From positions 1 through 24,063 of IMG/VR virus record IMGVR_UViG_3300010373_000138: 24,063 nucleotides of DNA. One strand, given 5' to 3'. Origin of the DNA: a virus. Position numbers and translations under genes: made by a program. The notes under the pieces are model-generated. The model was given only the letters and a program-made list of their open reading frames with translations. It did no database searches and had not been told where the DNA came from. Below, in pieces: positions 1,400-24,063 of this stretch (positions are counted from its first letter, which is position 1; the number at the start of each line of letters is the position of its first letter).

Positions 1400-1981
1400 T
1401 TATACAGCGACCTTATTAGCAACATATTGATGCTGAGCGATCTGCACCTGCAGAATCGTATAAGCATCCCCCCACGCATTGCCGATGGACGGATCAAGCG
1501 CCACAATGCGGAGCTGATTCTGCCCGCTGGGCGTGATGCCGGAACTCGCTGCCGTGCAAGCCGATAGACCGGTAGTGGTGGAACCAGCCGTGATATTGGA
1601 AAAATCTACCTGAGAGCCGACGGAATCATAAGCGATGGAGCCATCCGCCTGGATGCTGAACACCATGTTCGGATCATCCCATACCCATGCATAAATCGGA
1701 GATGCCGTGCTGCTATAAGTCGTGCCAGCCGTCCACATATCGGTAGAGTGAGGTACGCCCTGCGAATCAACCCAAGTAACACCCGCGAAAACACCAAGGA
1801 TATCATTATCGCCCGCTGCGGCGGCAACGATGCCATCAGTGCCACTTAAAGCGACGGGCTGGTACTTTAGAATGTTAGCGTTATAGCCAGACTTGATACC
1901 CGCAACATACCCGCGCGCAGCCGCCATACCCTGAGGGCTATAAGCAGGACGCATGCCAAACGGATTAAGGACAGCACTCAT
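1400..1981 (-). CDS. Phage head protein, decoration/structural family
   Basis: The 193-aa product begins MSAVLNPFGMRPAYSPQG. It continues with a Gly/Ala/Ser/Thr-rich beta body containing DILGVFAGVTWVDSQG and an AWVWDDPNMVFSIQADG segment. This pattern recurs in phage head proteins encoded beside the capsid gene. I chose ATG 1981 because AGGGAG lies seven bases upstream; the in-frame ATG 24 bp earlier lies inside the upstream gene and lacks a site. The gene is 34 bp upstream of the capsid gene in one operon. Function is probably capsid decoration or head completion, inferred from context only. Confidence 0.75.
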   Translation of the reverse strand: MSAVLNPFGMRPAYSPQGMAAARGYVAGIKSGYNANILKYQPVALSGTDGIVAAAAGDNDILGVFAGVTWVDSQGVPHSTDMWTAGTTYSSTASPIYAWVWDDPNMVFSIQADGSIAYDSVGSQVDFSNITAGSTTTGLSACTAASSGITPSGQNQLRIVALDPSIGNAWGDAYTILQVQIAQHQYVANKVAV

Positions 1982-1991
1982 TGTATTCTCC

Positions 1992-2561
1992 CTATCTGAT
2001 GCCAACGAAAGTCGGCGGTTTTGCTTGACCTAAGTGACTATAACCATCCGAAACACCGGAATTAAATCCGCCGCCCGTATAGGCGACATTGCGCCCCTTG
2101 CCGTCCTGGCCGATGCGCACACTGTCACGGAGATTTTTTGCTGATTCATGGGGAACGGTGTGATGGAGATACGTCATATCTTCGATCCAGTCGTCATGAC
2201 GAATTTTGGCCAAGACCATCTCATTTACGCAGATACGATCATCGGTAAGATCACCGGATTTCTGGCTATTAAGGCAGAAATCGGGAAGTTCGGCGCGCTT
2301 TACAAGCTCGTAACCAAGGCGCTGGCGACTCTCGATGGTATCTTTGTTGTTATTAGTGGTAAGCCAGATAAGGTGATAGCCCGGCATCTCAGGGGGGATC
2401 GGAAGCAGCGTATTCGTATCACGCAGCATGGCATAGCGTTCCTGCTTGCGGACGCTATCGGTCTTCTCGCGGTTTTCGGTCGTAGACCGATCTAAAGTAA
2501 GACGGTCGGTGCGGGCTGATCCATTGTCGGCCCTCTTAGCAATACGTTCGTCGCCAGACAT
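1992..2561 (-). CDS. Conserved-looking phage protein of the head module, function unknown
   Basis: The 189-aa product begins MSGDERIAKR. It has a charged, probably disordered first 45 residues, then a compact domain with PIPPEMPGYHLIWLTTNN and IESRQRLGYELVKRAELP, and a Gly-rich tail. ATG 2561 sits six bases after GGAG (TTGGAGATGTTTATG); in-frame TTG and ATG codons just upstream are less well placed. It is the first gene after the gap that holds a candidate promoter (2682-2709) and hairpins, so it may open a capsid sub-operon. Location between scaffold and head genes suggests a virion or assembly role. No family is recognised. Confidence 0.75.
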   Translation of the reverse strand: MSGDERIAKRADNGSARTDRLTLDRSTTENREKTDSVRKQERYAMLRDTNTLLPIPPEMPGYHLIWLTTNNNKDTIESRQRLGYELVKRAELPDFCLNSQKSGDLTDDRICVNEMVLAKIRHDDWIEDMTYLHHTVPHESAKNLRDSVRIGQDGKGRNVAYTGGGFNSGVSDGYSHLGQAKPPTFVGIR

Positions 2562-8104: not shown

Positions 8105-10465
8105 TTATCCATAATTCCCGCTCATCTGCCGTTTCCAGTAAGACTGCTCCCGAGCAACGGCAACACGGCCCCTCAGGAATCCAGCCTTATCCAGCACCGA
8201 TAGAGCCTGCACGAGAGAATCAACCCCATCATCGTTTTTTACATTGGGAAAATAAAGAAGCTGCTCGTACATCTTCGATAGCCATGACATCACATATCCC
8301 TTCCGGTTCCTGCTCTCGGGCATCCACAAATAACCGTCCCGAACCAGGTGAGACACCAAGTTGGCGCGCGCGGTCTTATCCAAATTCCCAGGACTGTACG
8401 GGTATACCGTAATTCCCGCGCGCCGCAGTTCGGGAATCAAAGCCGAACCACTCGACTTGTCTTCGATAATAACGGCATCCACCGCCTTATCGTTCTTTCC
8501 GAATTTGTTGGACCACTGCCGGAGTACCTCGTCTCTCAATTCCGGATAAGGAACCTTCTCCATATAGCAATCCAAAACCATCACCGAATGTTTGCTGCTC
8601 CCCTCCGTCGCCTTGAATAATCCCAGCGCCAAGATACACGAATCATCCGCCGTCGATTTCGCCGAAAACGCGCCGTCCAAACTAAGAAACACCGCGTCGA
8701 ATGCAGGTAGCTCCTTATCGGCTGGCCAGAAATGAACCCAGTCCGGCTGGAAGATCACCGAATCCTGCGCCAGCGGATTTTGCAACATCTGCGATGCAAT
8801 GATAGCAGGCGACATGTCACGCAACTTGTTCTCCCACTCCTCCTGCGTAAACAACCTCGGCGTTCCATCCGCGCGCCCATTATCCGTCGCGGGATAAATA
8901 CGCGGCTTTACCACACCGCGCTTGATGTATTCCTCATACGCGTCACTATTTTTAGAGCAAAAGCCATCGGCTATGTAATTACCCGTTTCAGTCTCCAACC
9001 AATAAACATCATGATAGCCAGCATCCTCAATGCCCTCTAGCTTCAATCTATCGGTGAACATTTGGCCATACAAAGAATCGATCAGCTTTTTGTTTCTAGA
9101 TGGTCGGCATTGCGTGAGAAATCTATATCTTTCCCTCCATCCGCCATTTATAGAAAAAACATATTTGTCATGATGATCGGGGAGATTTATTTTATAAAAC
9201 TGCTCGCTCCAGCTATATCCCAATTTAGCAGCGCTTAACCGGAACTGCTCGATAACATCCATATTCTTTACAGTCTGCACTAAGTTAATGTTAGCACTTG
9301 GATGATTGGGGTTTTTTCTAATTGTTCCCTCCCCATCGAAGAATCCCCCCAGCCACCCAGCATCCCAACTATCACTTGTCTCCGTCGGTATTAGTAGCTG
9401 GTGAATAAATTTGGATTCGTGATAACCAAAACCAAGCGAACCATACTCCCTACCACGAGACAGTTGCGCACCTTTCTTGCCCATTTGGGGGTGATTTGCT
9501 TTCGCAGACCAATGCGCACCACGCCACCAAAGATGTTCCTTGGTGCAAGTTACACTGCGCCCATTATTAAACGTATATTTGAACACTTGAAAATTGAGAT
9601 GCACTCCAGAATTTAAAACCCTCGATTTTTTCAATACACGTCTAGCCCCATCACCCTTTTCCCAACCTACAATCTCATCTCCAATACACACATCTTTTAT
9701 TTTCTTCTGAGAGAAATCCCCCATGGTAATTAAGGTATCGCCGACAGTGCAAAGCTTGTACCGAGTCCCAATCATGCGCATAAGGCCGCCGCGTTTACCT
9801 AAATTACTAGACATATCTAGCGCATCAAGAACCTTCCGCATTTGCTCCGGCGTACTCACGCTCTCCAGCGTCACAACGTCATCATAAACACGCAGCTGAA
9901 AGTGACGACCAGTCGGCGCGCCGTCCACTAAACCATGCGCCTCAATAGTTGCCTCGGGGGGATTGCCATTGCGCTTTACCGTGATCCCCTGATCCTCTGC
10001 CCATTTTGGACTTTCCGTCTGCGGGTCGGCATAGAGAATGTCCGGGAACAGTTTCTTTAGGAAAAGATTGGATTCAAATTCGCGCTTTATCGCGCGAAGG
10101 AACGACTTGGCAATTGGGCGCGTATGGGAAAAGATACCAATGGTTATCTCGGGATCGCAGAGAATATCTTGAATTGTTAAAGCTATTGTTATTACAGTGC
10201 TTTTTCCGCCTTCTCTAAACCACAGATCAACATAACCATTCGGATCGGATTGAACCTCGCGGCAACGGTCAAACCACCACTGGTTTTCCACGAACGGGCG
10301 GTTGAGGCCATATCGGAGGAGAAAATACAGGTCATTTTGACAGAGCCAGCGGAAAACAGCCGGAGCTTTTTGGGGGTCGAGACTATGAAGGAACGAAGTG
10401 TAATCCTTGTACGACCGTAAATGTTGGGATGGGGGGCTACCGGGGTCGCTTTTTTCTGGCGGCAT
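8105..10465 (-). CDS. terL: Terminase large subunit (TerL) with in-frame intein
   Basis: TerL powers DNA packaging at the portal and cuts the concatemer. The 786-aa precursor has a Walker A variant REGGKST (84-90), Walker B VYDD (193-196) and the ATPase coupling motif GTRY (233-236). An intein occupies residues 239-506. The nuclease domain follows, with SLDGAF (Asp597), VIIEDKSSG (Glu668/Asp669) and NDDGVDSL (about 744-751) giving the acidic RNase H-like triad. Without the intein the protein is 518 aa, normal for TerL. ATG 10465 is preceded by a weak GAGCGA site. The gene lies downstream of a promoter at 10581-10609. Confidence 0.95.
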   Translation of the reverse strand: MPPEKSDPGSPPSQHLRSYKDYTSFLHSLDPQKAPAVFRWLCQNDLYFLLRYGLNRPFVENQWWFDRCREVQSDPNGYVDLWFREGGKSTVITIALTIQDILCDPEITIGIFSHTRPIAKSFLRAIKREFESNLFLKKLFPDILYADPQTESPKWAEDQGITVKRNGNPPEATIEAHGLVDGAPTGRHFQLRVYDDVVTLESVSTPEQMRKVLDALDMSSNLGKRGGLMRMIGTRYKLCTVGDTLITMGDFSQKKIKDVCIGDEIVGWEKGDGARRVLKKSRVLNSGVHLNFQVFKYTFNNGRSVTCTKEHLWWRGAHWSAKANHPQMGKKGAQLSRGREYGSLGFGYHESKFIHQLLIPTETSDSWDAGWLGGFFDGEGTIRKNPNHPSANINLVQTVKNMDVIEQFRLSAAKLGYSWSEQFYKINLPDHHDKYVFSINGGWRERYRFLTQCRPSRNKKLIDSLYGQMFTDRLKLEGIEDAGYHDVYWLETETGNYIADGFCSKNSDAYEEYIKRGVVKPRIYPATDNGRADGTPRLFTQEEWENKLRDMSPAIIASQMLQNPLAQDSVIFQPDWVHFWPADKELPAFDAVFLSLDGAFSAKSTADDSCILALGLFKATEGSSKHSVMVLDCYMEKVPYPELRDEVLRQWSNKFGKNDKAVDAVIIEDKSSGSALIPELRRAGITVYPYSPGNLDKTARANLVSHLVRDGYLWMPESRNRKGYVMSWLSKMYEQLLYFPNVKNDDGVDSLVQALSVLDKAGFLRGRVAVAREQSYWKRQMSGNYG
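8948..9751 (-). mobile_element. Intein with single LAGLIDADG-type homing endonuclease motif, inside TerL
   Basis: The 268-aa insertion begins at Cys239 (CTVGDTLITMGDF, intein block A) and carries block B (TCTKEHLWW with the TxxH pattern). It has a LAGLIDADG-like helix WLGGFFDGEGTI (371-382) and ends DVYWLETETGNYIADGFCSKN, with Ser as the +1 residue. It interrupts the extein between GTRYKL and SDAYEEY, next to the ATPase coupling motif, a functional site typical for inteins. The penultimate residue is Lys instead of the usual His, and only one dodecapeptide motif is visible, so splicing efficiency and endonuclease activity are uncertain. The DNA looks more AT-rich than the flanking terL. Confidence 0.92.
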
Positions 10466-20562: not shown

Positions 20563-20646
20563 CGAAATGTTTGCTTTTTTTAACAACACTATTCCGAATA
20601 CGATGAAAGCTCCTTTAGGGGGAGCTTTCGGATCGGCGCCGTTTTT
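20563..20646 (+). ncRNA. Possible short antisense RNA
   Basis: A promoter at 20528-20556 and a terminator-like hairpin ending in Ts at 20641-20646 would define an RNA of about 85 bases. Its 3' part is complementary to the last codons of the MUG113-type gene, which ends at 20615. This resembles the arrangement of lambda OOP RNA, a short antisense RNA in an early control region. No expression evidence exists. Confidence 0.35.
20601..20646 (+). terminator. Strong hairpin with downstream T-run
   Basis: GAAAGCTCC (20605-20613) pairs perfectly with GGAGCTTTC (20621-20629) around TTTAGGG, and CGAT/ATCG extends the stem after a GG bulge. GGCGCCG and six Ts (20641-20646) follow on the plus strand. 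On the minus strand the hairpin covers the stop of the gene ending at 20615 but has no T-run, so the terminator reads better rightward. Confidence 0.45.
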
Positions 20647-21181
20647 TGGATTTTGGGGGCCGCTGCAATTTGGAGAGATAGACGCGATATTGGCGAAGAC
20701 CGACTTTGATGCCGCGAATAGAATCACTATCAATCAGCTTCTGGCGATCACCCCATTTAACCAAATCGAATACAGAAACATTATTTGTTTTCATTATTTC
20801 CGTGAAAATCGGCCAATTTTCATGCGTATAGTGGGGCTTCACTCGAAAATATGCTCTTCTCAGTTTCTCGTTAAAGGCGGAGTCGATAAGGGCATTGGCA
20901 TCAAATTTTCCGCATTTTTTATCAATAAACCTGGTCAATTCATCGACCGCCTTAAACCATTCCCCGCGTATTTTAGCTGTTGTGAACTGTTTGTGAATTT
21001 TACGTTCATCACTGAATGTGCCAAGAAAGAAGCCCAACAGGGAAAGATCATATGGAGTATGAGATTGGACAATTTTCGCGCGCTCCATTGGGTGACGGCG
21101 AGTAATTCCAATTTTTATGGCACCGTTCTTTCCGGCTTGCATAAAATATATAAAACCTTTGGCAGAACTATTTTTTTGCAC
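20615..21181 (-). CDS. MUG113/T5orf172-type protein (GIY-YIG-related)
   Basis: The N-terminal 90 residues fit the T5orf172/MUG113 family: GFIYFMQAGKNGAIKIGITR (GIY-YIG-like start, with Arg in R-x-P), SLLGFFLGTFSDERKIHKQF and RGEWFKAVDELTRFI. These are distant relatives of GIY-YIG nucleases found in many phages. The C-terminal 90 residues are basic and unassigned, ending KSKKRRRSESSP. The start is GTG 21181, with AAGGTG about nine bases upstream and a 14-bp overlap with the regulator gene; the next ATG would cut into the first strand of the domain. It may be a nuclease or DNA-binding protein; activity is unproven. Confidence 0.75.
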   Translation of the reverse strand: MQKNSSAKGFIYFMQAGKNGAIKIGITRRHPMERAKIVQSHTPYDLSLLGFFLGTFSDERKIHKQFTTAKIRGEWFKAVDELTRFIDKKCGKFDANALIDSAFNEKLRRAYFRVKPHYTHENWPIFTEIMKTNNVSVFDLVKWGDRQKLIDSDSIRGIKVGLRQYRVYLSKLQRPPKSKKRRRSESSP

Positions 21182-21486: not shown

Positions 21487-22044
21487 ATGGCTTATGAACA
21501 CTTAAAGAAACTGCTTGCCAAAAACGGCATGAAACAAGCGGATTTGGCGCAGTTAATTAATCGCAGCGCCGCTGTTGTTACCAATCTATTTCAAGGCGTG
21601 AGAAGCCTCCAGGTAGAAGAGGTGGAAAGAATTGCCAGTTATTTTCAAGTGACCACTAATTTTGTGCTTTATGGCGAAGTGCCGAGAGAGTATATCTCCA
21701 TTAAAGGCACTATAAGGGGGGATGATATAGTGGAGCTTCTAGATGCCGACCAAGTAGAACGCGTGGATTTACCACCTGACGTTGCGACTGGTGTATTTTC
21801 CTGCGCTTATAGATATTCTAGCAAGAATTGGCTATGCTTGGTGGGGGCTAGAATAATGGGAAATTGTGACGATTTTTCCGATACTCCTTATATAGTGAAA
21901 ATAAAAAACGGAGAAACGGTGCTTTGCTATATTCGGCGCGGGCATCAAGTAAATCATTACAATCTTCTTCAAGATAAGACCCTCATAGAGAATGTTCAAA
22001 TCGAGTGGTGTGAGCCTGTAGAACGCATAATCACTAGACTGTAA
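21487..22044 (+). CDS. CI-like phage repressor with degenerate S24-type C-terminal domain
   Basis: The 185-aa product has an N-terminal HTH (residues 3-60: YEHLKKLLAKNGMKQADLAQ, SAAVVTNLFQGVRSLQVEE). A linker and C-terminal domain follow with the outline of S24 repressors (ISIKGTIRGDDIVELLDAD, then FSCAYRYSSKNWLCLVGAR and YIVKIKNGETVLCYIRRG). The G-x-S-M nucleophile motif and catalytic Lys of self-cleaving repressors are not visible; VGARIMGN stands at the Ser position. RecA-stimulated autocleavage therefore seems unlikely, and induction may use an antirepressor. ATG 21487 has AGGA eight bases upstream. Operators at 21402, 21461, 22128 and 22163 flank the gene. Confidence 0.8.
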   Translation: MAYEHLKKLLAKNGMKQADLAQLINRSAAVVTNLFQGVRSLQVEEVERIASYFQVTTNFVLYGEVPREYISIKGTIRGDDIVELLDADQVERVDLPPDVATGVFSCAYRYSSKNWLCLVGARIMGNCDDFSDTPYIVKIKNGETVLCYIRRGHQVNHYNLLQDKTLIENVQIEWCEPVERIITRL

Positions 22045-23584: not shown

Positions 23585-24063
23585 ATGAAAATAACATCAG
23601 AATGGCTGAAGAAAAATAACGCATGCGATGATGGTTATTCTTGGTTTTCCCAGAACTTCCCCGCAGATTCCGAAATCGAGCCGCTTTTTTCAAAGTTAGC
23701 GGAAGATAAACGCGATGATTGGGCAAATTGGATTCTGTTCCGAATTTCCGATCAGACGGACTTTGCCACGCACCTGAAGTTGTGGATTGGCCTTTGCATA
23801 AAGCGTGATGGAGAAGTCAGCACGACGGGCGACGAAGCGCACAGCAGCACGACGGGCTGGCGAGCGCACAGCAGCACGACGGGCTGGCGAGCGCACAGCA
23901 GCACGACGGGCGACGAAGCGCACAGCAGCACGACGGGCGGGGGAGCGCACAGCAGCACGACGGGCGACGAAGCGCACAGCAGCACGACGGGCTGGCGAGC
24001 GCACAGCAGCACGACGGGCGACGAAGCGCACAGCAGCACGACGGGCGGGGGAGCGCACAGCAG
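23585..24063 (+). CDS. Protein with STTG-xx-AHS nine-residue repeats, C-terminus cut by window edge
   Basis: An open frame from ATG 23585 runs off the window. The first 78 residues form an N-terminal domain starting MKITSEWLKKNNACDDGYSW, with the pattern W-L-x4-A-C-x2-G-x3-F that I recall from phage and prophage proteins carrying low-complexity C-termini. From Ser79 the protein is nine tandem repeats STTG-xx-AHS, where xx is Asp-Glu, Trp-Arg or Gly-Gly. Nine-residue Gly/Ser/Thr repeats suit a beta-solenoid or other fibrous fold. The opposite strand is also open because of the repeats but looks like a shadow. A role in host or DNA mimicry, or in binding, is unproven. Confidence 0.7.
   Translation, partial: MKITSEWLKKNNACDDGYSWFSQNFPADSEIEPLFSKLAEDKRDDWANWILFRISDQTDFATHLKLWIGLCIKRDGEVSTTGDEAHSSTTGWRAHSSTTGWRAHSSTTGDEAHSSTTGGGAHSSTTGDEAHSSTTGWRAHSSTTGDEAHSSTTGGGAHS
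23819..24063 (+). repeat. Nine perfect 27-bp tandem repeats with a 6-base variable slot
   Basis: Each unit reads AGCACGACGGGC, six variable bases, then GCGCACAGC. The nine units carry GACGAA, TGGCGA, TGGCGA, GACGAA, GGGGGA, GACGAA, TGGCGA, GACGAA, GGGGGA. Outside the slot every unit is identical. Units 3-6 and 7-9 follow the same order, suggesting duplication of a 108-bp block. The array continues past the window end. Confidence 0.95.

Follow-up and report, generated by a model that had tools for sequence, protein, structure and literature searches.

A homogenised protein repeat array with a varied two-codon slot in a family of probably early phage proteins

At the end of one virus contig lies a protein-coding repeat in which two adjacent codons change from unit to unit on a constant frame, which raises the question of how such a pattern is maintained and where the protein would act. 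The window, meaning the whole stretch of DNA that was analysed, is a virus record of 24,063 bases, and the array occupies its 3' contig end. Nine units of 27 bp start at 23819, 23846 and so on to 24035, and TRF reports an array at 23818-24063 with a period of 27 and 9.1 copies. Each of the nine units is composed of AGCACGACGGGC, a slot, and GCGCACAGC, and this 21-base frame is invariant. The slot is GACGAA (Asp-Glu, DE) in four units, TGGCGA (Trp-Arg, WR) in three and GGGGGA (Gly-Gly, GG) in two, in the order DE WR WR DE GG DE WR DE GG. Unit reading and TRF confirm the nine-unit array, the constant 21-base frame and the three slot states that a sequence-only reading had described. Its count of six variable bases holds for the length of the slot, but the sixth base is A in 9/9 units, so that five bases vary. 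Block duplication had also been proposed from the likeness of units 3-6 to units 7-9; the two orders do resemble each other, but shuffling yields a repeated block of at least three units in 19% of cases, which is within chance. Because the last 93 bases copy 23863-23955 exactly, the array is taken to be truncated by the contig end, and the nine units are those seen. A self-copy of this kind is the sort of spot where short-read assembly breaks off. The features at this end of the window are as follows (slots by unit reading).

23585-24061, plus strand: open reading frame of the array protein, 159 amino acids seen, running off the contig; N domain and nine units, with the C-terminal cap missing (ORF, alignment, profile matches)
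23585-23818, plus strand: YdhT-type domain at the N terminus; the model of relative L117 is helical here (alignment with L117, L124, L136 and others; model)
23819-24061, plus strand: array of nine 27-bp units, S-T-T-G-x1-x2-A-H-S (TRF and unit reading)
23831-23836, plus strand: slot 1, GACGAA (Asp-Glu)
23858-23863, plus strand: slot 2, TGGCGA (Trp-Arg)
23885-23890, plus strand: slot 3, TGGCGA (Trp-Arg)
23912-23917, plus strand: slot 4, GACGAA (Asp-Glu)
23939-23944, plus strand: slot 5, GGGGGA (Gly-Gly)
23966-23971, plus strand: slot 6, GACGAA (Asp-Glu)
23993-23998, plus strand: slot 7, TGGCGA (Trp-Arg)
24020-24025, plus strand: slot 8, GACGAA (Asp-Glu)
24047-24052, plus strand: slot 9, GGGGGA (Gly-Gly)
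23971-24063, plus strand: terminal 93 bases, exact copy of 23863-23955 (sequence self-comparison)

Over its first 78 residues the window protein can be aligned to the N domains of further array proteins, and the repeats match the YdhT family (NCBIfam NF007410, E 1.1e-9) and phrog_4433 (E 7.6e-8). Together, these matches indicate that the array frame is coding. The NF007410 match falls in the repeats and not in the N domain, and its score of 38.2 bits, obtained with a truncated protein, lies below the curated cut-off of 300; therefore, a relationship is claimed and not an equivalog of E. coli YdhT. Identity with L117 is 38% over an alignment that includes the repeats, and the N domains have Cys, Gly and Trp columns in common. 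PF24703 (DUF7666), which is strong in relatives, has no match in the window protein, and a Pfam search of this protein returned no WD40 match. No close relative was found by a search of viral contigs with the exact 27-bp frame or by a search with the window N domain alone, phage records contained no near DNA match to the window, and a sequence search for a solved structure found none.

Relatives were sought with a degenerate pattern in which the slot and the third bases were unconstrained. This pattern yielded 108 stretches in viral contigs and 32 in a far larger genome collection, and several of the latter were unrelated low-complexity genes that were removed by hand before analysis. About 100 comparable arrays of the same design were obtained, mostly in phages, and they use few peptide frames (GxxA-H/N-S/A-A/S-T/S-T/S and variants). 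Two N domains, YdhT-type or DUF7666, account for most arrays, and complete arrays close with a similar cap. Named phages with such genes are ES18 (gp53), Edwardsiella GF-2, Komagataeibacter phiKX1, Acinetobacter fLi-Aba02, Salmonella SEN22 and many Pseudomonas phages. The family is annotated under unrelated names (collagen-like, ADP-ribosyltransferase, c-type lectin, flagellar hook-length control, attR), and the array of Vibrio phage 1.185.O (L006, 3243-3460) is annotated as four CRISPR spacers, yet its repeats are protein-coding. Shortly upstream of the array gene of L136, a pentapeptide-repeat-like protein (1576-2223, plus strand; SGANL/SGAYL/SDANL) has units that seem to differ at few positions. 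In open-access literature the slot pattern of this YdhT/DUF7666-type array family was not found, although it may have been described elsewhere.

The chromosomal relative of E. coli, ydhT, is decayed and stable in length. Its repeats are diverged and non-identical, it was matched over at least 80% of its length in 5,362 of 5,426 genomes, and among the matches listed, sampled at even ranking steps, 59 of 60 cover the full 813 bases. ES18 gp53 had no near match among E. coli genomes. In phages, the number of units changes while the surrounding protein does not. L086 and L149 have 12 units, against 14 in L099 and L116; the protein parts on either side are identical, and the difference is one two-unit insertion; L084 has 27 units and L128 has 19, also beside identical flanks. 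The P. aeruginosa phages phi1, BR208a, phi2, Flu_PA14_4 and YA3 have 9, 10, 16, 27 and 28 units, respectively, made mainly from three hexamers. Near-identical isolates have identical arrays (BR208a and BR228a; Flu_PA14_4 and Komp_PA14_gP). Gain and loss of units are thus supported. Stability of unit order and number, which the sequence-only reading had named as evidence against itself, gives a split outcome: arrays change between relatives with identical flanks and are stable between near-identical isolates.

Diversity within arrays separates the slot from the frame. In 104 arrays with at least four units, which are not fully independent in descent, mean pairwise diversity was 0.36 at the first and second codon positions of the slot and 0.037 at four-fold sites of the frame. 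The slot was the more diverse in 101 of the 104, and four-fold diversity was zero in 68. When one array was taken per DNA frame, the slot was higher in 77 of 80, with a ratio of 9.2 (Wilcoxon p 2e-14), and ten isolate phages read separately gave the same result. Arrays that share a peptide frame differ from one another at 59% of four-fold sites while the frame within each array is uniform, which indicates that each array is homogenised on its own. A dipeptide that occurs at least twice in a scanned array is encoded by one hexamer in 271 of 271 cases, where about 120 would be expected from independent draws; the slot states are therefore mostly copies. This rule is not absolute, since the isolate P7869 encodes Tyr-Gln by two hexamers. 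The earlier suggestions of active homogenisation and of discrete slot states are both upheld by these results. Serine codons in the scanned arrays are mostly TCC in slots (217/248) and mostly AGC in the frame (572/996), a slot bias that may reflect one-step changes among T-N-C codons.

The slot diversity appears to lie above the neutral expectation, as selection for variety would give. The alternative is neutral expansion, in which the array is a young slippage product, a spacer rod whose turn residues are free to vary, and diversity is not selected. Turn positions do accept many residues, complete arrays range from 3 to 27 units without a clear parity preference, and the slot order looks random: lag correlation gave no signal of neighbour avoidance or two-unit periodicity at lags 1-8. 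The missing lag correlation also counts against the copying route favoured below, since tandem duplication alone would be expected to leave some, although assembly from short reads drops arrays that contain long internal repeats. Repeated blocks were longer than in shuffled arrays (p<0.05) in only 1 of 73, a count in which assembly bias may hide more, and long repeated blocks are visible by eye in the isolates YA3 and Flu_PA14_4. However, neutrality predicts no excess of replacement diversity in the slot, which is about ten times the synonymous level, and at x1 the residues D, N, Y and E predominate, which shows some constraint on the slot. Neutral expansion is therefore considered unlikely.

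The position of the slot in the protein can be predicted from AlphaFold models of two relatives, L059 (DUF7666 type, mean pLDDT 87) and L117 (YdhT type, mean pLDDT 74, with repeat blocks at about 60-75). In both models each unit forms a single strand of five residues (positions 5-9 if the glycine is position 1), and G-x1-x2-A lies between strands, which places the slot in the turn. The sequence-only reading had imagined a beta-solenoid with one exposed dyad per turn, and a nine-residue strand unit with one dyad is what both models predict. Exposure of the slot is likewise suggested by the secondary structure of these models, and the nine-residue spacing would give two strands per coil, with slots alternating on two edges. 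Structure comparison gave moderate matches of several kinds (RTX beta-roll, MinC, CAP), with VIA Z below 8 and none decisive. The DUF7666 domain, absent from the window protein, resembles Arr ADP-ribosyltransferases (Z 7.5).

Gene context suggests where the protein would act. In ES18 the array gene, gp53, follows N and precedes cIII, kil and recombination genes. It also follows N in GF-2 and SEN22, and elsewhere it is near repressor-type genes. A repressor-like gene, read by eye, lies upstream in L117, and the window has a comparable feature.

21487-22044, plus strand: Cro/C1-type HTH protein, probable repressor, upstream of and on the same strand as the array; immunity-region context (Pfam HTH_26, HTH_3)

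Elsewhere in the window, a large terminase gene (8105-10465, minus strand) has an intein-like insert, in which residues of about 238-508 match an intein-containing model (E 3e-12) and the intein_Nterm match is below its cut-off; a gene at 20615-21181 (minus strand) encodes a T5orf172/MUG113 domain. Because the gene of the sequenced relatives belongs to the early operon, where the repressor is its neighbour and N often precedes it, an early protein acting inside the cell is indicated, and a role on the virion surface is unlikely. The array had been pictured as a modular surface, and a particle-surface or tail protein with exposed dyads that alter host range would be one form of it. Beta-solenoids are common in tail spikes, and one relative has a weak PHROG tail-fibre match (E 0.013). 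In the named phages, nevertheless, the gene is part of the early immunity operon and at a distance from the structural genes, and a signal peptide is not evident by eye, so the particle-surface idea is not borne out and is regarded as very unlikely. PADLOC returned no defence match for two relatives.

Targeted mutagenesis of the slot, as in a diversity-generating retroelement, would explain why only defined bases vary and why all four combinations of two x1 and two x2 states are found in 15 of 75 arrays. However, it is highly improbable, because the one hexamer per dipeptide in scanned arrays points to few alleles that are copied, and slot variation is not adenine-specific; neither a reverse transcriptase nor a template copy came to notice in the fragment that the window represents. 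That the array was created by assembly at the contig end is scarcely credible: 62 of 112 viral arrays do run off a contig end and the window closes with its 93-base self-copy, but deposited isolate phage genomes hold the same kind of array internally, which refutes this doubt for the family and leaves truncation, not creation, as the artefact.

Several known systems resemble parts of this design. The YdhT family/PHROG 4433 has a similar layout in relatives (N domain, nine-residue repeats and C-terminal cap); in contrast, the E. coli copy is decayed, with a constant length in nearly all sampled genomes, whereas the window units are identical in frame and fall below the NF007410 cut-off. DUF7666 (PF24703) phage proteins such as ES18 gp53 have a like array, cap and early position, but the N-terminal domain of the window protein is different. 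The RTX beta-roll also has nine-residue units with one short strand each and is among the best structural matches of the relatives' models (VIA Z 6.6-7.6, a score that unrelated solenoids equal), but its calcium motif GGxGxD is absent from the array by reading. TAL effectors share near-identical repeats and a two-residue variable slot with a limited menu; however, their repeats are helical, DNA-binding and 33-35 residues long, whereas the array units are of nine residues and predicted to be beta in relatives. A TALE-inspired screen covered repeats of 30-43 residues only (PMC5472282). The HIC WD40 repeats of fungal NLRs (het-d, het-e) evolve in concert, are under diversifying selection at a small number of positions and are polymorphic in unit number (PMC12222747), traits that the phage arrays appear to share, but HIC repeats form a beta-propeller in a fungal receptor and homology with the array protein is not claimed. 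The array logic is closest to TALE diresidues and fungal HIC repeats, and the protein belongs to neither.

The explanation favoured here, and considered probable as a whole, is an early, probably cytoplasmic phage protein with a solenoid whose varied slots would serve modular binding of a host-side partner. Its parts differ in strength. The array anatomy, homogenisation and unit turnover are read directly from the DNA. The fold and slot position are predicted: an N-terminal YdhT-type domain would be followed by a beta-roll-like solenoid of nine-residue units and a C-terminal cap (cut off in the window), each unit supplying one short strand (its last five residues, H-S-S-T-T in the window) and one turn, G-x1-x2-A, that holds the slot. 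For the route, we infer that unequal recombination or slippage copies units within an array, which would keep the 21-base frame identical and change unit number and order; rare point changes would create slot states that copying then spreads, and diversifying selection would retain several of them per array. The binding role is a guess from gene context, and its most likely form would be a modular face that binds a partner which varies within the host, for example a host target or a defence component. By analogy, the slots might even be a readable code: every dyad along the solenoid would touch a single element of an ordered partner, much as a TALE diresidue meets a base, and recombination of units would let phages re-target the protein. 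This extension is decidedly unlikely.

These findings describe a large phage family of unassigned function that appears to pair a constant scaffold with slot diversity at about ten times the synonymous level and with changing repeat number and order. Short-read assemblies cut these genes: of the viral arrays recovered, over half end at a contig edge. Should the slots determine binding, such arrays would amount to recognition scaffolds of a very compact, modular kind, and they would mark a contest that is still under way within infected cells.
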